This document shows positions 38,679 to 46,179 of a stretch of DNA of 64,000 bases, one piece after another (position 1 is the stretch's first letter; every line of letters begins with the position of its first letter). The position numbers were made by a program, and so were the translations under genes. Below the pieces are notes generated by a model. That model was given only the letters and a program-made list of their open reading frames with translations, was not told where the DNA came from and searched no databases. This DNA is from Planctomycetota bacterium (GTDB lineage: Bacteria > Planctomycetota > Planctomycetia > Pirellulales > Pirellulaceae): contig JAPLNL010000118.1 in assembly GCA_026692905.1 (NCBI GenBank), positions 1 to 64,000 of the forward strand, given 5' to 3'.

Positions 38679-38815
38679 GGCCGGTCGCATGGGATTTAAG
38701 CGGAGAGTCGCAATGGTGGCGCTGGATTAAACGCAGAGGCGGAGAGTCGCAATGACGCAATGTTAGGTTTCTCAGCGCCCTTGCGCCCTCGCGACTCTGC
38801 GTCAACTTAGTCACG
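38679..38815. repeat. Family H repeat (CGCAGAGGCGGAGAGTCGCA), left flank of GxxExxY gene
   Basis: After GGCCGGTCGCATGGGATT (38679-38696) come two starts of the GGCGGAGAGTCGCAATG unit, then AATGTTAGGTTTCTCAGCGC and the inverted end CCCTCGCGACTCTGCG. The outer arms CGCAGAGgcgGAGAGTCGC and GCGACTCTGCG pair. Same unit at 39235-39320 and 39364-39440. Confidence 0.9.
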
Positions 38816-38827
38816 CTTTGAATTTCT

Positions 38828-39208
38828 TCACAAGCCATTCACAACCCTGTGAAATCCATCTTTCACAAATCGTTCGCCAAAATTGATCACCAATCCAAGT
38901 TTCAGTTTCATAAGACGCAAATAGGTCAAAACCTGAGCTTCGAAGACATCGTTGTATCTTGATGTTGCCTTACATTCGACGATGACTAAATCTTGCACTA
39001 ATAAGTCGAGGCGTAACGAAGTTGCTAGTAACTGGTCCTTGTAATGAATTGGAACTTCCAGTTGTCGCCGAACGACTAAACCAGCATGCGACAATTCCCA
39101 TGCCAATGCTTCTTCGTAAACACTTTCAAGTAGTCCAGGGCCACCTAGGGTGCGATGCACTTCGATCGAAGCGTTGAGAATCCATTTGCTGATTTCATTT
39201 TCATGCAT
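38828..39208 (-). CDS. GxxExxY family protein (PD-(D/E)XK nuclease-like), second copy
   Basis: 126 residues with G25-x-x-E28-x-x-Y31 in GPGLLESVYEE and the putative active-site D68, E78 and K80 (RLDLLVQDLVIVECKA). It is shorter and clearly diverged from the copy at 365-784 but keeps the same spacing of the acidic residues. AGGAG lies 9 bases before the ATG. It is enclosed by family H repeats on both sides (38679-38815 and 39235-39440) and by an 18-base direct repeat, suggesting that gene and repeats moved as one unit into the space between yidD and the FHA-EAL gene. Confidence 0.88.
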   Translation of the reverse strand: MHENEISKWILNASIEVHRTLGGPGLLESVYEEALAWELSHAGLVVRRQLEVPIHYKDQLLATSLRLDLLVQDLVIVECKATSRYNDVFEAQVLTYLRLMKLKLGLVINFGERFVKDGFHRVVNGL

Positions 39209-39234
39209 GTTTTTGATCTCCTATTCTTGATCAT

Positions 39235-39504
39235 AAAGCGCAGAGGCGGAGAGTCGCAATGGCGCAATGTTTGGTTTCTCAGCGCCTTTGCGCCCTCGCG
39301 ACTCTGCGCTTTATTATATTCCAGGAACTTGTTCGGTGGCGCTGGCCGGTCGCATGGGATTAAACGCAGAGGCGGAGAGTCGCAATGGCGCAATGTTAGG
39401 TTTCTCAGCGCCCTTGCGCCCTCGCGACTCTGCGCTTTATTATTTACAGCATATTGATGCAGCGAAGAACAACCTATTCCATGAACTTGTTCGGTGGCGC
39501 TGGC
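39235..39504. repeat. Two family H units carrying a duplicated 3' end of the FHA-EAL gene
   Basis: Units at 39235-39320 and 39364-39440 are almost identical (GCAGAGGCGGAGAGTCGCAA to GCGACTCTGCGCTTTATTAT). Each is followed by a copy of GAACTTGTTCGGTGGCGCTG: at 39324-39343 as an orphan and at 39482-39501 as the true C-terminal codons of the FHA-EAL protein. The repeat has thus captured the end of that gene. No independent gene lies in 39209-39473. Confidence 0.9.
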
Positions 39505-40607
39505 CGGCCAAAATAATAGCCTTGAGCCATGGTGAAGCCTAGTTCTTGGCAGACCCTTGCTTCGGCTTCGTTTTCGATACCCTCGGCTAATGGCACGACC
39601 CCGAGATCGAGGACAATGCGCACCAGCGAGCCTAGCACTTTGATTCGCTCAGGTGGAGCTTTATCGATATCGCGGATCAACCCCATATCGAATTTTAGGA
39701 CATCGGGTGCGGCATTACAGAGTTCTGCCAGTCGGTTTTGCCCGGCGCCGAAATCATCGTAAGCGATTTGTATATTTAGGTCCCGCAGACGATTGCGCAG
39801 TTCGAACATTTCTTTGGCGCTCGTAATCGCTGACTCATGGATTTCGAGCGTAATTGGAAGTACAGTTGTCATCTCTCGAACTTTCGCCATCGAATCAATC
39901 AGCCCTGGCTTGCCGAGTTCTAGCGGGTGTGTGTTGACGTAGATTCGCGAATTCCCAGGCAAAGTCATGCCTTCGCGGATACCTTCCCAACGCAGCATTT
40001 GGCTCAATTCGGTTTCTAAATTGAGTTTGGATGCTGCACCGAAGAGGGCACCACTAGTCTCAAGCCCAAACATTCGACTCCTTGCTAGAACCTCATACCC
40101 GAGATTCGTAGCACCATCAATCGTGACGATCGGCTGAAAAAACGGAGTGACAAGCCTTTTCTCCATCAATCGGTCGAATTGAACCAACGCGAGTGCTTGA
40201 TCGCAAACATCCTCCGCTAGCGTGTTCGAAGCCGTCGCATGGTCACCGCATCGGACTCGGAACGCCATATCGGCGAATTGAACTAAGTCATCCGCTTTGA
40301 GAGTGACCATATCGGTAATACGGCGCCCATTGACATAGGTTCCGTTGGTGCTCTGCCTGTCTATTAAAACCAGGTTGCCATCTCGGTTGGTCAAGTCGGC
40401 ATGATGACTAGAAACGGTCTTCGAAGGTAATTGCAGGCTACATCCCGCTTTCCGCCCTATGGAAAAAGGAACGGGATGGATGACGGTCAGTGCATTCGAA
40501 ACCTGTTTACTCACGGAGGCCAATACCCAAACCGTTTTGGTTTCGGCGGGCGAAGAGCGTCGTGCACCGGTTGAAATGGGTTTACGGTATTGGGCGATAT
40601 CGTTCAT
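39474..40607 (-). CDS. FHA domain - EAL domain protein
   Basis: 377 residues. An FHA domain (about 45-118) has the phosphothreonine-binding signature: SIGR (49-52), SSHH (66-69), NGTYVNGRR (88-96). An EAL domain (about 148-372) has EVL (172-174) in place of EAL and the other active-site residues: N225, E255, DD (284-285), K305, E342 and Q362. It therefore looks catalytically intact as a c-di-GMP phosphodiesterase. An FHA module would tie it to Ser/Thr kinase signalling; a kinase-tubulin fusion lies 2 kb away on the divergent side. The 295 bases between it and the AAA+ gene hold no gene and probably contain both promoters. Its last codons are copied in the downstream repeats. Confidence 0.92.
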   Translation of the reverse strand: MNDIAQYRKPISTGARRSSPAETKTVWVLASVSKQVSNALTVIHPVPFSIGRKAGCSLQLPSKTVSSHHADLTNRDGNLVLIDRQSTNGTYVNGRRITDMVTLKADDLVQFADMAFRVRCGDHATASNTLAEDVCDQALALVQFDRLMEKRLVTPFFQPIVTIDGATNLGYEVLARSRMFGLETSGALFGAASKLNLETELSQMLRWEGIREGMTLPGNSRIYVNTHPLELGKPGLIDSMAKVREMTTVLPITLEIHESAITSAKEMFELRNRLRDLNIQIAYDDFGAGQNRLAELCNAAPDVLKFDMGLIRDIDKAPPERIKVLGSLVRIVLDLGVVPLAEGIENEAEARVCQELGFTMAQGYYFGRPAPPNKFME

Positions 40608-40902
40608 CGGCGTAGCTATGGGGAATCGATCAAATCGGTTTTGACGGTTGTATTGATTGACGTAGTTTGGTGAGACTCCAAGCTCAACTTAGTAGTTTAG
40701 ACCACAAATTGTGCACGATCAGCGAATCTCGTTATTTTGGGCCAGCATTTTGTTCTTATCGAACCGATCTTTGCATTTGCATTCATTCTTTCTGGTGTTT
40801 TTGTGCCGATGACAGGCAGACAACTACGTCGATGGTCGATGACTTTGACGATCGCGATGAAAATGCATATTTGCTCGTTCGACATGCTATGAAGGATTTT
40901 TC

Positions 40903-42660
40903 ATGCAAGCGCTTTTTGGAATTCGAGACACATCTTCTGCAACCGGCCTAGGCTTGCCAGCGGTACTGAATGACGATGCGTTCTGGCCTTATGAGCCGAA
41001 GACGCTTGACGAGTGCGGTCTACCCGAGATGGCGATCGAGTCCTTGATCCTGCAGACCTTTCTTTCGATCGGAACGCTAACAGGCCGAGGAATGACTGAC
41101 CGAATACGATTGCCGTTTCGTATCGTGGAGCAACAACTAGCCCAGTTGCGAGTTCGCCAGCTCATTGTTCATGCGCGTCCTGCTGCACTCAACGATTTTT
41201 ACTACAGCCTGACCGAGAACGGACAGAAGCGGGCACAAAGTTATCAAAAGGCTTCATCGTATGTTGGTCCAGCACCCGTTCCTCTCATGGACTATGTGCT
41301 CAGCGTGGAAGCACAAGCGAGTAACTTTGAGCCGATAACGGTCAAAGAGCTCAAGGCTGCACTTGATGGCGTGACCTTCGAACCATCTTGGTTGGATTTT
41401 TTAGGTCCAGCCATCAATAGTAACTCTGGCATTTTCCTATATGGACCGCCGGGAAACGGGAAAACAACACTAGCTCGCTGCTTGGCCAACTGTCGAGGGC
41501 AAGAGATTTGGATTCCCCATGCGATCATCGAAGACGGAATGATTATCAAACTTTTTGATGCCTCGTATCACGTTGCCTCGAACACTCCGAATGGCTCATC
41601 GGGATTTATTGCAAACCAGGAACACGATCGCCGCTGGCTTCGCATTCGGCGCCCCACGGTGGTTGTCGGTGGAGAATTGACGCTCGATAACCTTGAAATT
41701 CGGCACGACCCCCGAAGCAACACGTGCGAAGCGCCACTACAGATGAAGAGCAATTGTGGATGCTTGCTCATCGACGACTTTGGACGGCAGCGCGTGGCTC
41801 CCGCAGAGCTTCTCAATCGTTGGATTGTGCCCTTGGAAAGCCGTCAGGACTATCTTAATCTACCCACAGGCAAGAAATTCTGTGTTCCCTTTGAACAGAC
41901 GATTTTATTCTCTACCAACCTTCAGCCGGAACAACTTGTCGACGAAGCGTTTCTCCGCCGGGTTCCGTTCAAAATCAACATCGGCGATCCAAGCGTCCAA
42001 GAGTTTATGGACTTGTTTGAGCGAGCAGCAGAAGCAGCCGACGTTCCATGGCGACCAGATGCCATCGAGAAATTGATCGAAAAGCATTATCACAACGTTG
42101 GACGTCCGTTGCGGAGATGCCACCCTCGCGACTTGCTGCATCAAGTCAGTTGTCTATGTGCTTATCGCGGCGAAAGGGCCGAGTTACGTCCTGAGTTTTT
42201 AGACCTCGCATGCACAAATTACTTTGGAAACCAGCCAATCATGCAGTCCTCTGCCTCGATGATGTCCAAACCAATAGGCTGGGATGTCTCTGCTCCGGGC
42301 TGGCCGAGTTCCACCGCACCTGCGGGAGAGTCCTTGCCCAATCGAATTGCAAATGGGGCTGTGCAAGGGCCTTTGCAAGGACAGAATAGCCAATCGCTTC
42401 GAAGCCAGACTCAACGCACCGAAATGCTTCGAGGAGCCAATCCAGCGACGGCGGCTCCACCTCCACAGAGTGTTCCTCAGCAAGCACGCAATATGGCTGG
42501 AACCCCCACGTCGACCGCTCCACGGTCCGTACCTGTGCAGGTCGCAAATCCTAACCCTGACGCTCCGCTCCGTCCCGTCACCCAGACTCCTCGGCCGACA
42601 CGTCTACCAAGTGCGACCGAATCTCAGTCCACCAACTTGCCAACTAGCGAACAAGTCTAG
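40903..42660 (+). CDS. AAA+ ATPase with proline/glutamine-rich tail
   Basis: 585 residues. Residues about 40-125 may be a winged-helix module (LTGRGMTDRIRLPFRIVEQQLAQLRVRQLI...YSLTENGQKRA). The AAA+ core (about 140-440) has Walker A GPPGNGKTT (about 181-189), Walker B CLLIDDFG (about 287-294), sensor-1 ILFSTN and a C-terminal helical lid. Residues 450-585 are disordered and rich in Pro, Gln and Ala. No membrane segment. The gene ends 9 bases before the kinase-tubulin fusion, so the two are surely co-expressed. Role unknown; it may remodel the partner or its filament. Confidence 0.9.
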   Translation: MQALFGIRDTSSATGLGLPAVLNDDAFWPYEPKTLDECGLPEMAIESLILQTFLSIGTLTGRGMTDRIRLPFRIVEQQLAQLRVRQLIVHARPAALNDFYYSLTENGQKRAQSYQKASSYVGPAPVPLMDYVLSVEAQASNFEPITVKELKAALDGVTFEPSWLDFLGPAINSNSGIFLYGPPGNGKTTLARCLANCRGQEIWIPHAIIEDGMIIKLFDASYHVASNTPNGSSGFIANQEHDRRWLRIRRPTVVVGGELTLDNLEIRHDPRSNTCEAPLQMKSNCGCLLIDDFGRQRVAPAELLNRWIVPLESRQDYLNLPTGKKFCVPFEQTILFSTNLQPEQLVDEAFLRRVPFKINIGDPSVQEFMDLFERAAEAADVPWRPDAIEKLIEKHYHNVGRPLRRCHPRDLLHQVSCLCAYRGERAELRPEFLDLACTNYFGNQPIMQSSASMMSKPIGWDVSAPGWPSSTAPAGESLPNRIANGAVQGPLQGQNSQSLRSQTQRTEMLRGANPATAAPPPQSVPQQARNMAGTPTSTAPRSVPVQVANPNPDAPLRPVTQTPRPTRLPSATESQSTNLPTSEQV

Positions 42661-42669
42661 AGGTTTCCT

Positions 42670-45600
42670 ATGGTAATGACAGCAAGCATTCAGGCCGGTT
42701 TTGAACCGATCTCCGGCTACGTACTTCGTGACAAATTGGGTACGGGTGGCTACGGCGAAGTATGGTTGGCTGATGCACCCGGCGGACTCAAGAAGGCGAT
42801 CAAGTTTGTCCATGGCAGTATTGACGGCAATCGCGCATCGGGTGAACTCAAATCGTTACAACGTATTCGGCAAGTGAATCACCCATTCATTCTTTCACTG
42901 GAAAGGATCGAGGTCATCGAGGGGCAACTCATTATTGTTACTGAGTTGGCTCAAGGATCGTTGCATGATCGATTTCTCGAGTTTCGTCAAAAGGGTTTTG
43001 TGGGGATCTCAAGAGACAAACTACTCGCCTATCTGCGCGATACAGCAGATGGCTTGGATTTTCTTTGCCAACAACATGATCTTCAGCATTTGGATGTCAA
43101 ACCCGGGAATCTGCTTTTGGTCGCCGACCGCGTTAAGGTCGCTGACTTTGGGCTAATCAAGGACATTCAGTCCAATAGCCTTTCAGTGATGGGAGGTTTG
43201 ACTCCGACTTACGCAGCCCCTGAAATGTTTGATGGGCGTCCCGGTCGATTTAGCGACCAATATTCATTGGCAATTGTATATCAGGAGTTGCTTACAGGTA
43301 CGCTTCCGTTTCGCGGACGAACGACCGCTCAGCTTGCAAATGAGCATCTTCACAAAGCGCCGAATCTGGAGGCTATCCCACTGCTTGAGCGTCCAATCTT
43401 GAGCAAGGCTCTCGCCAAGAAGCCTCAGATGCGTTTCAGTGATTGCAGAGAATTTATTCATGCGTTAGAGAACGTTCAGGCCCAGCCGGATAAAGTAAAG
43501 TTAGCCTCAGAGGACGCTGCAACAAGCAAGAAGAAGATCGTTCATCGGTCGGCGAACAAGAGTATGCCACAGCGCTCCGCCGGTGCCTCAAATGGCAATT
43601 TTCAGGTCCTCCGGAAACACCCCGAGGGGCCCTCTACGCATAGCACTCAGAGCCCGGTCGCAGATTCCGCTCGATCCCGAGGTGTTGAGATATTGCCCGA
43701 GTTGCTCGGTAACGACGAGGATTCTGATGAGGTTTCGTCCATCGAGACCAAGGCGAGCAACAGTCCCAGAAAAACACTAATTATCGGGCTCGGTGCAACT
43801 GGGGCGAAGTCCCTAATGTGGATGCGAGATAAGCTGCTTGAGTCGAGCCCCTTGCAACTCAATTCAGAGCAGCTTGGATTTCTGTTGATCGACACAGACC
43901 AAGCGACCATCGAAGCTGCCATGGCACCGGAGCGGGCAGCAAGACTGCCCTACCATGCCGCTGTTTTGATTCCGCTCAAGTCACCGCAATACTACCGCCA
44001 ATCGGAAGCTGACTTCGCTCAACTAAGCCGACGTTGGGTCTACAACATTCCGAGATCCCTAAGGACCGAAGGAGTACGCCCTCTTGGAATGCTAGCCCTA
44101 TTGGACAATGTGACGACTGTTTTCGATGCTTTGCATGAATCCATTTTGGAAGTTGCCAAAAGCAAAGGGGAGGATGCTTTCGATGAACCGATCACCGTGC
44201 AAATCGTCGCATCAGCGCATGGCGGAACAGGTAGCGCCATCGCATCCGAAATTGGATTTATGATTCGGCAATTGGCCGCCGAATTCGAAATCGCAATCAA
44301 TACAGAATTGATTTTGACATGTGCTTCTCAAAACGCAGTCGCCGCATCAGAGCTCACAACTGCGTCCGCACTAGCATGCTTGACCGAGATCAACCACTAT
44401 TTCCGAACCGAGGGCTTGCATCCACAACTCGACCGGCTATCGGCCTCCAAAGCCATCAATAAGCCTCCTTTTGACTTTGTCTCTTTGATCTATGGAGGTC
44501 AATGCGGTATCAGCTCGGAGTGGAAGGCGACAACGGTCCAAGTTGCGGAATATCTTTGGGCCTGCTCCGAAACCGAACTTGGGGACCGTATTGCGAAAAC
44601 CCGACAGGAAGCTAACGCTGACGGGAATATCCAAATGGATCAAGTCTGGACACCTTGGTTGGGGGCTGTCAACTCCCAATCCGTAATGATCTCCTCCGAC
44701 CTCGACACCGTTGATCTAGCGAGCAGAACCTGTCTGCGCGCGATCTTGCCATGGCTATCCGCCACAAACGAAGTGCTCATGGACGATACAGAGGATGAAT
44801 CGAACCCCAAGGACCTAGATTCCAGAACACTTGAAAGAATGGACTTTTTCGTTCAAGACATGTTTCGAAATAATCATTGGAGGGTCCGACAGTTCATGGT
44901 GCGATTGGTTCCTAGCATCGATGAAAAGAATAGAAATGCGGCAGAGTCGCCCCAGCAACAGCCGCAAGCCGAATCGACGCTTAACATCGAACAGCGTGAA
45001 GATATCGAGCATGTATGCGATCAACTTGCACTCGATATCAACGACGTGATAAAGTCAATTACGATAATGATGGCCGATACGCAGGCAACTCTTGCAGATT
45101 GCTTGACGAATGATTGGCTTGTCACCCCAGTTGCCTGGGCGAATTTGAGGCAGTTGGTGCGTTCGGTAGGTTCGAAATTTAGCGTCAATTCCAACTCGCT
45201 AAGCATCGTGTCGCAAAAACTGGCGGACAAGCATGATGCGTTTCTCGAAAAAATGTATCGCGACGAAAATAATGCGACAACGGAATTTGAGCAACAATTG
45301 CATGCCATGTCGTTGGAGACTCGATTCCATTCGATGGGCGCTAAGATTCTCGGTCGATTGGCCGAGCATATGTCCTATGTCGAAAACCTTTGGATCAACG
45401 AATGCAAATTGCTACATTCGGAAATTTGCGATTGGGTCGATGAGCTCTCCAATCGACTGGGAGTGCAACTGAATGATTCGCCCAAAGCCCGCTCCTTTCT
45501 GTCCGCCTTGTTTCAGTCGGAAAACGATGACGCGGTAAGCAAGGAAACACGCAAATCCATTCAGCAATTGATGTGTGGTAGACTCAAGGTCGCATTGGTC

Positions 45601-46179
45601 CCAGAGTCGAAAACCGAAACGGGAGCTCATGTATCATTTGGTGCCATCCTTGAAGCGGCAACGCAGGCTTGTTTGCCTGACCAAGTCACTCAAGCGAGTG
45701 CTGTCGATTTTGTCCTCGGCGAGAACGGTGCTCCAGGCGAAGCCGAACACAACAATACTGTTGTGGTGAGCGATCATGCTCCGATTCTGTCAGTCGCCAC
45801 TGAATGTGAACTCACGTCCTCCTCAACCTCGCATATAAATGCAGCGATGCCAGAAAAACGCAATTTAGAAATCGAAATCGATTCGTCAAGACCTTACTTT
45901 GTCGAATTCGGAGGCGCCGTACGAAATATCGTTCTCGTCCCCGTCGAGGTTGCCGATAGACTAGACCCCATTCAAAGAGGGACAATCGAGGAAAAAAAGG
46001 CTACCTTGATCTCTAGCTATCGCTGCCAAAAACCAACGATCATCTGCCTCGGCGAACAACTTGTACTCAGCGATATTATGGATCGATTTTGGATGCCATC
46101 GTCAGACGTCTGGGATTTAGCCAACAGAATCTTCGCCCGCGTGGATGTGGACTGGCTACCCGTCAACGGCCCAAGTTAA
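42670..46179 (+). CDS. Ser/Thr protein kinase fused to tubulin/FtsZ-like domain
   Basis: 1169 residues. The kinase domain (about 17-270) has glycine loop LGTGGYGEVW (23-32), K45, DFG in VADFGLIKD and TPTYAAPE; the catalytic HRD is HLD in LQHLDVKPGN. A 90-residue linker follows. From about 367 the sequence matches the bacterial tubulin-like family: LIIGLGATGAKSLMWMRDKL, LLIDTDQATIEA and, near 516, the nucleotide-loop signature AHGGTGSAIAS. The last 600 residues are helical and unassigned. No membrane helix, so cytosolic. A kinase joined to a potential GTP-binding filament protein, with an AAA+ ATPase directly upstream, suggests a regulated cytoskeletal or scaffold device; this is inference. 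Start ATG 42670 or 42676. Confidence 0.9.
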   Translation: MVMTASIQAGFEPISGYVLRDKLGTGGYGEVWLADAPGGLKKAIKFVHGSIDGNRASGELKSLQRIRQVNHPFILSLERIEVIEGQLIIVTELAQGSLHDRFLEFRQKGFVGISRDKLLAYLRDTADGLDFLCQQHDLQHLDVKPGNLLLVADRVKVADFGLIKDIQSNSLSVMGGLTPTYAAPEMFDGRPGRFSDQYSLAIVYQELLTGTLPFRGRTTAQLANEHLHKAPNLEAIPLLERPILSKALAKKPQMRFSDCREFIHALENVQAQPDKVKLASEDAATSKKKIVHRSANKSMPQRSAGASNGNFQVLRKHPEGPSTHSTQSPVADSARSRGVEILPELLGNDEDSDEVSSIETKASNSPRKTLIIGLGATGAKSLMWMRDKLLESSPLQLNSEQLGFLLIDTDQATIEAAMAPERAARLPYHAAVLIPLKSPQYYRQSEADFAQLSRRWVYNIPRSLRTEGVRPLGMLALLDNVTTVFDALHESILEVAKSKGEDAFDEPITVQIVASAHGGTGSAIASEIGFMIRQLAAEFEIAINTELILTCASQNAVAASELTTASALACLTEINHYFRTEGLHPQLDRLSASKAINKPPFDFVSLIYGGQCGISSEWKATTVQVAEYLWACSETELGDRIAKTRQEANADGNIQMDQVWTPWLGAVNSQSVMISSDLDTVDLASRTCLRAILPWLSATNEVLMDDTEDESNPKDLDSRTLERMDFFVQDMFRNNHWRVRQFMVRLVPSIDEKNRNAAESPQQQPQAESTLNIEQREDIEHVCDQLALDINDVIKSITIMMADTQATLADCLTNDWLVTPVAWANLRQLVRSVGSKFSVNSNSLSIVSQKLADKHDAFLEKMYRDENNATTEFEQQLHAMSLETRFHSMGAKILGRLAEHMSYVENLWINECKLLHSEICDWVDELSNRLGVQLNDSPKARSFLSALFQSENDDAVSKETRKSIQQLMCGRLKVALVPESKTETGAHVSFGAILEAATQACLPDQVTQASAVDFVLGENGAPGEAEHNNTVVVSDHAPILSVATECELTSSSTSHINAAMPEKRNLEIEIDSSRPYFVEFGGAVRNIVLVPVEVADRLDPIQRGTIEEKKATLISSYRCQKPTIICLGEQLVLSDIMDRFWMPSSDVWDLANRIFARVDVDWLPVNGPS

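Follow-up and report, generated by a model that had tools for sequence, protein, structure and literature searches.

Organization of the locus

The window, by which we mean the whole stretch of DNA analysed, comprises 64,000 nt from a Planctomycetota bacterium of the Pirellulaceae (assembly GCA_026692905.1, contig JAPLNL010000118.1, positions 1-64,000, forward strand). It contains three open reading frames at the coordinates proposed in a first-pass annotation: an FHA-EAL protein of 377 aa on the minus strand (39474..40607; recognized by its ORF and Pfam matches, with the EAL catalytic residues checked and intact), an AAA+ ATPase of 585 aa on the plus strand (40903..42660; ORF, P-loop and motifs), which belongs to class 1 of a two-class family, and a fusion of a Ser/Thr kinase with an FtsZ/tubulin-like domain (FtsZl1, Tubulin_2) of 1169 aa, also on the plus strand (42670..46179; ORF, Pfam and structure model). 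The arrangement described there was confirmed as well, with the FHA-EAL gene lying divergently upstream of the AAA+ gene, from whose start it is separated by an intergenic region of 295 bp (40608..40902), and the fusion gene starting 9 bases after the AAA+ stop codon. A sigma-70 scan listed no site within this 295-bp region, and the yield of promoter and terminator scans was not above that of shuffled sequences. Gene calling took the longest ORF in each case, which makes the starts approximate and left some genes uncalled.

No clear transmembrane stretch was found in the three proteins by a Kyte-Doolittle scan. The label "cytosolic" given to the kinase is thus reasonable, since the maximum mean hydropathy over 19 residues reaches only 1.33 in the fusion, 1.25 in the AAA+ protein and 1.78 in the FHA-EAL protein, there inside the EAL domain. 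Neighbours at the window locus with Pfam matches are a hydrolase, a PDDEXK_3 protein, a HAD hydrolase and an FtsX-like permease, and vWA, GTPase and OmpA domains were absent from the five neighbouring proteins scanned against Pfam.

The FHA-EAL protein

The FHA domain (residues 49-111; 40275..40463, minus strand; whole-protein E 2.6e-18) reads GRK...VSSHH...NGT at its binding site and contains R52, S66 and N88, which we take to be the conserved residues of such sites. In the alignment, the residue following the serine is mostly G or S in relatives of the window form and R in a second form of the protein described below. The EAL domain (residues 145-369; 39501..40175, minus strand; E 3.1e-33) has 11 of 11 residues of what is presumably the catalytic and metal-binding set (E172, R176, N225, E255, E258, D284, D285, K305, E342, E345 and Q362). 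Profile matches and conserved residues thus fit the proposed phosphothreonine reader joined to a c-di-GMP hydrolase, and the protein can probably read phosphothreonine and break down c-di-GMP. In the completeness of the checked catalytic residues, the window protein and its window-form relatives resemble other EAL-type c-di-GMP phosphodiesterases; here, however, the domain is fused to FHA and tied to a kinase-tubulin gene.

Pairs of a bacterial Ser/Thr kinase and an FHA reader are known, for example PknB with FhaA, or PknG with an OdhI-type protein. The window locus shares with them the adjoining kinase and FHA genes, but differs in that its FHA protein contains an EAL domain and its kinase a tubulin-like domain. 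FHA-EAL proteins also occur away from tubulin genes and in tubulin-free genomes (e.g. G107, G111). Eleven regions outside tubulin loci, about half of those found by tblastn, were taken for comparison, and in 4 of the 10 non-tubulin loci with an FHA-EAL call the gene directly adjoins a kinase-DUF5939 gene.

The AAA+ ATPase

Pfam gave only weak matches below the cut-off for the second gene (AAA, E 7e-4), which encodes a P-loop ATPase. The core (residues about 147-441; 41341..42225, plus strand) is mostly modelled by AlphaFold2 at pLDDT above 85 and shows the features expected of AAA+ proteins: Walker A (GPPGNGKT), Walker B (LLIDDFG), a sensor 1-like STN and arginines in conserved RR motifs, these names being assigned by reading the sequence. 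It is preceded by an N-terminal domain (residues about 35-117; 41005..41253, plus strand) that, in our own reading of the secondary structure of the model, appears winged-helix-like, and followed by a C-terminal tail of low confidence (residues 445-585; 42235..42657, plus strand; pLDDT below 50), which is probably disordered. Among the matches listed by Foldseek are Lon, BchI, ComM, MCM and NtrC-type AAA+ proteins. A severing ATPase of the spastin/katanin kind was considered and found no support: the best PDB sequence match is spastin, but it covers profile positions 177-211 alone, around Walker A, and the fold matches listed belong to other AAA+ groups, with rmsd above 12.

Class 1 and class 2 of the family fall on opposite sides of one branch with support of 100 in a FastTree tree; the class boundary (between L176 and L177) had been set by identity with the gene neighbours in view, and the tree split came afterwards. 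Among 25 class-1 loci from named records, four of which (L162, L165, L175, L176) overlap our first locus set, the fusion is present in 22 and FHA-EAL in 21. Neither was found near any of the 55 class-2 paralogues (0/55). For 26 of these loci the available sequence reaches 4 kb or more to either side, and for 49 it reaches 2 kb or more downstream, so that a distant partner could escape notice in some of them. The class-2 paralogue was also dismissed as a guide to function, as no neighbour family recurs in more than four of nine loci.

The kinase-tubulin fusion

The kinase domain of the fusion (residues 17-265; 42718..43464, plus strand; E 2.1e-29) contains all motifs of an active Ser/Thr kinase, namely G-loop, catalytic Lys, HxD (within HLDVKPGN), DFG and APE; in the aligned relatives with a kinase the HxD motif reads HLD rather than HRD. 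The tubulin-like half, as claimed in the first-pass annotation, is recognized by Tubulin_2 (PF13809; residues 370-607; 43777..44490, plus strand) with E 3.3e-18 and 66.5 bits in the protein search against a cut-off of 27, and with 69.7 bits in the genome search. The AlphaFold2 model of this part has a mean pLDDT of 69.4 and gave 57 fold matches at E 0.001 or better; the 50 listed are all chains of CetZ, FtsZ or tubulin-containing entries, with TM scores by target of 0.32-0.49, and the best of them is CetZ (E 1.2e-5). The model continues with a long helical region (residues about 728-1014; 44851..45711, plus strand), a low-confidence stretch and a small alpha/beta end.

Both motifs pointed out earlier, GLGATGAKS (T1) and AHGGTGSA (T4), are present, although the latter departs from the common form of the family, SISGGTGSG or SISGGTGGG. 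The T4 loop of FtsZ/tubulin GTPases is expected to read GGGTG(S/T)G, and in the window HGGTGSA ends in A in place of G. With gapped rows excluded and a few genomes present twice, the strict pattern GG[TSA]G[SGA]G is found in 22 of 38 window-form rows versus 30 of 32 second-form rows. A T7 motif (NxDxxD/E) is absent from the tubulin part of the window protein and matches in 6 of 23 relative sequences, at scattered places. Among relatives of the fusion, sequence divergence is much faster in the tubulin part than in the kinase. Filament formation by the fusion is doubtful because the T4 loop is altered and the T7 motif is absent in the window.

Co-inheritance of the three genes

Among 117 genomes of the order, 55 matches to PF13809 were found, of which 52 belong to the clade of the fusion; L097, L115 and L116, which have no kinase and lie outside the fusion cluster, were excluded, and L070, which lost its kinase, was included. 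The canonical FtsZ/tubulin family (PF00091) was found in 0 of the 117 genomes. An FHA-EAL relative is located near 50 of the 52 matches, against 0.17 expected, where a place counts as near if the centres lie no more than 7 kb apart or if it belongs to the locus's FHA-EAL cluster, and where 68 of 86 FHA-EAL places were used, the 18 dropped being short and mostly EAL-only. The AAA+ gene, from hand-picked places, lies within 8 kb of 37 of the 52. It is missing from this range in the other 15, some of them well inside a contig and one (L074) with a truncated AAA+ call that adjoins the fusion. Gene order and strand vary among loci, and the linkage is kept. Conversely, an AAA+ match of 469 bits or more, a threshold picked with the data in view, is found in 44 genomes, and every one of them has a fusion-clade match, in one case (G004) without the kinase part.

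The AAA+ and fusion trees have their main clades in common; like the FHA-EAL tree they are quick trees without bootstraps, and in both the window row forms a long branch. At L070, the one locus with a kinase-less tubulin protein, FHA-EAL is absent, and no match to it was found in that genome at E 1e-12, which speaks for a tie between kinase and FHA-EAL. Against a strict tie, Rhodopirellula europaea 6C keeps AAA+ gene and fusion with no FHA-EAL gene within 10 kb.

Two forms of the locus

The FHA-EAL protein and its c-di-GMP domains come in two forms. In the first set all 14 window-form loci have complete EAL residues, and in the second set, where L161 is split into two ORFs, so do 20 of 21 FHA-EAL proteins; the single exception is of the second form. 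The loci L117 and L118 were not used. This second, degenerate form accounts for 33 of 50 typed loci, with L079, L082, L090 and L096, which have no called FHA-EAL gene, typed by tblastn matches and not by residues. In 32 of 32 second-form loci the EAL proteins retain at most 5 of the 11 catalytic residues. Mapped onto the fusion tree, this form takes four changes to explain, though on the FHA-EAL tree it occupies one side of one branch.

Second-form loci carry an added GGDEF-derived protein, which is not clustered in four of them; one was found in L066 and L083, and L063 and L084 end with the contig. The GG[DE]EF motif is missing in all 28 locus copies, and for this reason the recurrent antisense gene, about 480 aa long, was rejected as a source of c-di-GMP; the two members scanned are REC-GGDEF-CBS proteins (REC below the cut-off in one). 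Two further GGDEF genes with an intact motif are present at L085. Intact diguanylate cyclases head the cluster in five loci (L103/L175, L174, L233, L234 and L235). Among the 117 genomes of the order this cluster cyclase occurs in just 2, and the window genome gave no match to it at E 1e-32. The link to c-di-GMP is thus stronger than the first-pass annotation could know, given the complete EAL residues and the five loci with an active-looking cyclase. Judging from residues, c-di-GMP turnover is nevertheless not needed everywhere, or by the system as a whole, because the c-di-GMP domains of the second form appear dead.

Interpretation and alternative explanations

We regard the three genes as one inherited signalling module, on the basis of the linkage observed and of a mechanism that we infer, and consider this whole explanation about an even bet (probability roughly 0.5). 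Its most likely form, given the same even odds, is a kinase-FHA-EAL switch that would lower c-di-GMP on a tubulin-like scaffold remodelled by the AAA+ protein. The soluble kinase may phosphorylate itself or a partner on a threonine, and the FHA domain of FHA-EAL, whose binding site is conserved, would dock on that phosphothreonine. Because docking would place or activate an EAL domain whose catalytic residues are fully conserved, and thereby promote c-di-GMP hydrolysis, kinase activity would become a local fall in c-di-GMP; in the five related loci the diguanylate cyclase in the same cluster could supply the opposing activity. The tubulin-like half might gather kinase molecules by nucleotide-dependent or plain oligomerization, and the AAA+ protein might assemble, disassemble or remodel this assembly. 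In the second form, the dead EAL and GGDEF-derived proteins are probably receptors of c-di-GMP or phosphothreonine, while the core of kinase, FHA, AAA+ and tubulin stays. Linkage and residue conservation argue for the switch, and its further steps are hypothetical; against it stand the degenerate form of 33 of 50 loci, with the four changes that this form takes on the fusion tree, the 15 of 52 loci lacking a nearby AAA+ gene, the Rhodopirellula europaea 6C locus without FHA-EAL, the FHA-EAL proteins away from tubulin genes, and the rarity of the cluster cyclase, to which the window genome has no match at E 1e-32.

The degenerate loci could also mean that the core controls the assembly of a structure and that c-di-GMP is an input sensed rather than an output lowered. 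Receptors derived from degenerate GGDEF/EAL domains, LapD among them, are an established class, LapD is a below-cut-off NCBIfam match of the window FHA-EAL protein, and the core genes remain together in loci whose EAL and GGDEF-derived proteins have lost their catalytic motifs. These proteins resemble LapD-type receptors in that loss, but are FHA-linked and lie inside a kinase-tubulin locus. We hold this reading to be rather unlikely, since window-form loci retain every checked catalytic residue, which pure sensing would not need, and since an intact cyclase was added in five loci.

The kinase-FtsZ-like fusion itself is already known (Makarova and Koonin 2010, PMC2875224). According to that paper, FtsZl1 includes four planctomycete members with an N-terminal kinase and has C-terminal coiled-coil and helical extensions; the family is often encoded beside vWA proteins, GTPases, kinases and OmpA proteins, and its authors infer membrane remodelling from operons that contain genes of the vWA, GTPase and OmpA kinds. 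The window fusion belongs to the same domain family (Tubulin_2, PF13809), down to the N-terminal kinase of the planctomycete members, and a machine in which the fusion polymerizes and the kinase regulates the polymer would agree with the PF13809 match and the tubulin fold. Here, however, the partners are an AAA+ protein, FHA-EAL and, in some loci, GGDEF proteins; vWA, GTPase and OmpA domains, of which the first two are frequent but not universal in FtsZl1 operons, are absent from the five window neighbours scanned, and the three proteins have no clear transmembrane stretch. Together with the altered T4 loop, the uneven conservation of its strict pattern between the two forms and the missing T7 motif, this makes such a filament machine improbable. 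The earlier proposal of a phosphorylation-controlled polymer linked to c-di-GMP thus holds in part: both outcomes that would have refuted it failed to appear, as the genes are co-conserved and the C-terminal part matches PF13809 and tubulin folds, and the c-di-GMP link stands, while the polymer is not supported by the T4 and T7 sites or by the faster divergence of the tubulin part.

An anti-phage or conflict system, where a kinase would work together with an AAA+ protein in the manner of kinase-based defence, is very unlikely. PADLOC gave matches to PD-T4-6 and mad6 for the kinase domain and to IetA and TRIP13 for the AAA+ P-loop, but the former span the generic kinase domain and the latter a stretch of 20-54 residues at the P-loop; the neighbours with Pfam matches are those named above, and the genes, whose trees are similar, are retained across many families of the order. 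We set this explanation aside. That the genes merely share a position and are co-inherited with no shared function would fit the loci in which one partner is missing, but is hardly credible given a linkage that outlasts changes of order and strand, the excess of 50 in 52 over 0.17 expected and the empty class-2 loci.

Significance

Our literature searches found no paper that treats the three genes as a module and no experimental study of an FtsZl1/Tubulin_2 protein. In the main text of PMC2875224, FHA and GGDEF do not occur, EAL appears inside a reference alone and AAA+ for chelatases alone. If the proposed switch is true, it would tie Ser/Thr phosphorylation genetically to the turnover of c-di-GMP in a straightforward way.

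To our knowledge, the cytoskeleton of the genomes in this order is an open question. Where it is present, the tubulin relative of the order is tied to a kinase, an AAA+ protein, FHA-EAL and c-di-GMP, and because these are three concrete partners and a second messenger, its role is directly testable; loci with live and dead c-di-GMP domains offer a natural contrast and a ready-made experiment. The co-inheritance suggests that the tubulin relative is wired into second-messenger signalling. Tentatively, we propose that in these FtsZ-less bacteria it might serve as a phosphorylation-controlled scaffold for c-di-GMP turnover, a reading that we consider less likely than not; if true, and as far as these searches show, no earlier tubulin relative is known to take part in c-di-GMP signalling. 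On this scaffold the kinase would write a phosphothreonine, FHA-EAL would read it and remove c-di-GMP at that site, a cyclase would make c-di-GMP in some lineages and the AAA+ protein would reset the assembly.

The locus and its surroundings

The window locus comprises an FHA-EAL protein of 377 aa (39474-40607, minus strand), an AAA+ protein of 585 aa (40903-42660, plus strand) and a 1169-aa fusion of a Ser/Thr kinase with a tubulin/FtsZ-like domain (FtsZl1, Pfam Tubulin_2; 42670-46179, plus strand), each identified as an ORF with Pfam matches, those of the AAA+ protein being weak and below cut-off. The FHA-EAL and AAA+ genes are divergent with 295 bases between them, and the AAA+ gene is followed by the fusion after 9 bases. 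Four of the five neighbours scanned have Pfam matches (a lipase-like hydrolase, a PDDEXK_3 protein, a HAD hydrolase and an FtsX-like permease). The genome, of which the window represents part of contig 118, is 5.96 Mb in size; it contains a single match to the Tubulin_2 profile PF13809 and, elsewhere, a second AAA+ paralogue that is 43% identical.

The PDDEXK_3 ORF (38828-39208, minus strand) has on either side an imperfect palindromic element of about 85 nt, present in three copies (38715, 39222 and 39348; stretch 38715-39507), whose 15-base core occurs three times genome-wide, always in this stretch; PF13366 has five matches in the genome. Between the copies at 39222 and 39348 lies a 33-nt duplicate (39317-39349, 97% identity) of the FHA-EAL 3' end (39475-39507). 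ORF and palindromes look like a small mobile element inserted right after the FHA-EAL stop codon; blastn found no match to this stretch in the relative L152 (Pirellula sp. CoA8_C32).

Co-conservation of the three genes

The first-pass annotation had proposed from adjacency that the three genes could form a phosphorylation-controlled polymer linked to c-di-GMP, and their linkage and co-occurrence are borne out across the order Pirellulales. PF13809 gave 55 matches in 50 of 117 genomes; three of them lie outside the fusion cluster, have no kinase and were left out, and 51 of the 52 kept include a kinase. An FHA-EAL relative lies near 50 of these 52 fusion-clade matches, compared with 0.17 expected if the 68 FHA-EAL places were distributed at random. 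The two others are L091, on a contig of 4.8 kb, and L070, whose protein has no kinase domain. L070 (G004:C247) encodes a Tubulin_2 protein of the fusion's clade in a genome without an FHA-EAL match at E 1e-12; possibly, kinase and reader were lost jointly.

An AAA+ gene is found within 8 kb of the fusion in 37 of the 52 loci, upstream and on the same strand. The FHA-EAL gene is divergent and upstream in the window, L067, L081 and L112, in line and downstream in eight loci (e.g. L064, L076), and in line and upstream in L103. Every genome whose AAA+ match reaches 469 bits (44 genomes) also has a fusion-clade match. Three clade genomes have no such AAA+ match: in G056 a truncated AAA+ call adjoins the fusion (L074), G060 is on short contigs, and in G093 the linked AAA+ protein scores 453 bits. 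The 469-bit threshold is only a rough divide, because just below it linked AAA+ proteins (447-462 bits) overlap with those of fusion-less genomes (e.g. G027, 460 bits).

For a second set, contigs were scanned with the AAA+ alignment and the best 80 of 584 loci were taken, 25 of class 1, to which the window protein belongs, and 55 of class 2; the classes are on opposite sides of one branch of the protein tree (support 100). Among these 80, the fusion is present in 22/25 and FHA-EAL in 21/25 class-1 loci, and each in 0/55 class-2 loci. The fusion is missing from L157, L165 and L172, and FHA-EAL from L153, L155, L157 and L165; the contig of L153 begins at the AAA+ gene, and L155 (Rhodopirellula europaea 6C) has no FHA-EAL within 10 kb on either side. 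The closest relative among the best 80 is L152, with identities to the window of 65% (AAA+), 73% (FHA-EAL), 74% (kinase), 38% (tubulin core) and 21% (C-terminal part). All three genes also occur in Rhodopirellula sp. SM50, Ca. Laterigemmans baculatus, a Mariniblastus and a Bythopirellula bin. Many genomes of the order carry the class-2 paralogue (G000:C89:860-2119, locus L119; L177-L231), which also occurs in Singulisphaera, Obscuribacterales and two proteobacterial bins; across nine of its loci, no neighbouring gene family recurs more than four times.

In L103 (= L175), L174, L233, L234 and L235, a protein with an intact GGDEF motif, FHA-EAL, AAA+ and the fusion are all encoded on one strand, and their genes either overlap or are separated by short gaps; the last three loci come from three genomes that belong to another family of this class, and the FHA-EAL frame of L235 was identified visually in a three-frame translation. 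On the other hand, the fetched stretches of L232, from a fourth PF13809-positive genome of that family, and of five loci from more distantly related members of the phylum (L236-L240) contain no partners, save a separate kinase-like gene in L237. The cluster cyclase was matched in only 2 of the 117 genomes, with no match in the window genome at E 1e-32.

Conservation and predicted structure

Identity to the window protein is 48-74% for the kinase, 19-38% for the tubulin core and 9-21% for the C-terminal part (leaving out L159 and L161b, with empty or one-residue overlaps). The kinase, FHA and EAL sites of the window proteins are intact, and every sequence that covers the kinase motifs, except L070, retains them with minor changes (e.g. 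DYG in L065). The T4 loop matches GG[TSA]G[SGA]G in 22 of 38 rows of form A, the window's form of the locus, and in 30 of 32 rows of a second form, B; the window T4 loop does not match, and its tubulin part has no NxDxxD/E motif. Searched alone against the PDB, the sequence profile of this part found helical bundles only and no tubulin. Its predicted model (mean pLDDT 69.4, pTM 0.58) has a tubulin fold: the 50 PDB matches listed are all CetZ, FtsZ or chains of tubulin-containing entries.

The AAA+ model (mean pLDDT 74.8) is mostly confident in its core and below 50 in its tail, a 140-residue C-terminal segment rich in S, T, P and Q (42235-42657, plus strand). Foldseek ranked an uncharacterised Pyrococcus protein (8p49), Lon, BchI, ComM and MCM, which is only a hint at the AAA+ group because alignment rmsd exceeds 12. 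Most of the 25 class-1 relatives among the best 80 of 584 loci have just 441-491 aa, compared with 585 in the window.

A profile search with PF00091, which detected 13 of 14 control genomes, had no match in any of the 117 genomes, leaving the Tubulin_2 protein as their only detected relative of tubulin. It cannot generally replace FtsZ, since PF13809 is confined to 50/117 genomes of the order and 18/292 across the phylum (15 above cut-off).

FtsZl1 and its four kinase-bearing planctomycete members were described in the text of Makarova and Koonin (2010, PMC2875224); the four members recur in a 2023 paper (PMC9871819), and FtsZl1 is listed in the Gemmata massiliana genome paper (PMC4672568). 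Our literature search found no paper on an FHA/EAL/tubulin-like combination in Planctomycetes; the 2010 supplementary files, outside the search, may list some of these neighbours.

Two forms of the locus

All 11 EAL residues are present in 14/14 form-A loci of the first set, and in the second set (best 80 of 584 loci) 20 of 21 FHA-EAL proteins have the full complement, the exception, L172, being form B. Form-B proteins keep at most 5 of 11 in 32/32 loci. In 28 of these 32 a GGDEF-derived gene adjoins the FHA gene in antisense and, at loci with a linked AAA+ gene, sits between AAA+ and FHA; the GGDEF motif is lost in all 28 copies, and the two members scanned are REC-GGDEF-CBS proteins. The trees disagree on the history of form B: it lies on one side of a single branch in the FHA-EAL tree (SH-aLRT 100), whereas the fusion tree requires four changes. 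Both forms are present in G024, G033, G047 and G113. Form A is found in the window genome, form B in ten further members of its family within the first set; the window locus was therefore either retained from an old duplication or acquired.

Proposed mechanism

Eleven FHA-EAL places outside tubulin loci were fetched (L132-L142), ten with an FHA-EAL call. A kinase-DUF5939 gene is directly adjacent in L134, L137, L138 and L141; of the four encoded proteins, those of L138 and L141 match an adenylate/guanylate cyclase above cut-off and that of L137 does so weakly, whereas that of L134 has no such match. In L139, two small ORFs separate FHA-EAL from a kinase gene. The FHA-EAL family is therefore also associated with kinases other than the tubulin-fused type, at roughly half of these places. 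At the four adjacent loci, kinase, cyclic nucleotide and c-di-GMP signalling may cross, the class III cyclase domain being above cut-off in two.

For the window locus, we propose that the kinase would mark a threonine, which the FHA-EAL protein would bind, so that c-di-GMP would drop locally; the tubulin half may cluster the kinase, and the AAA+ protein may reset the assembly. Form B, with both of its c-di-GMP domains dead, argues most strongly against the view that c-di-GMP output lies at the heart of the system, and we therefore hold this mechanism at a probability of about one half. That the genes work together is very likely.
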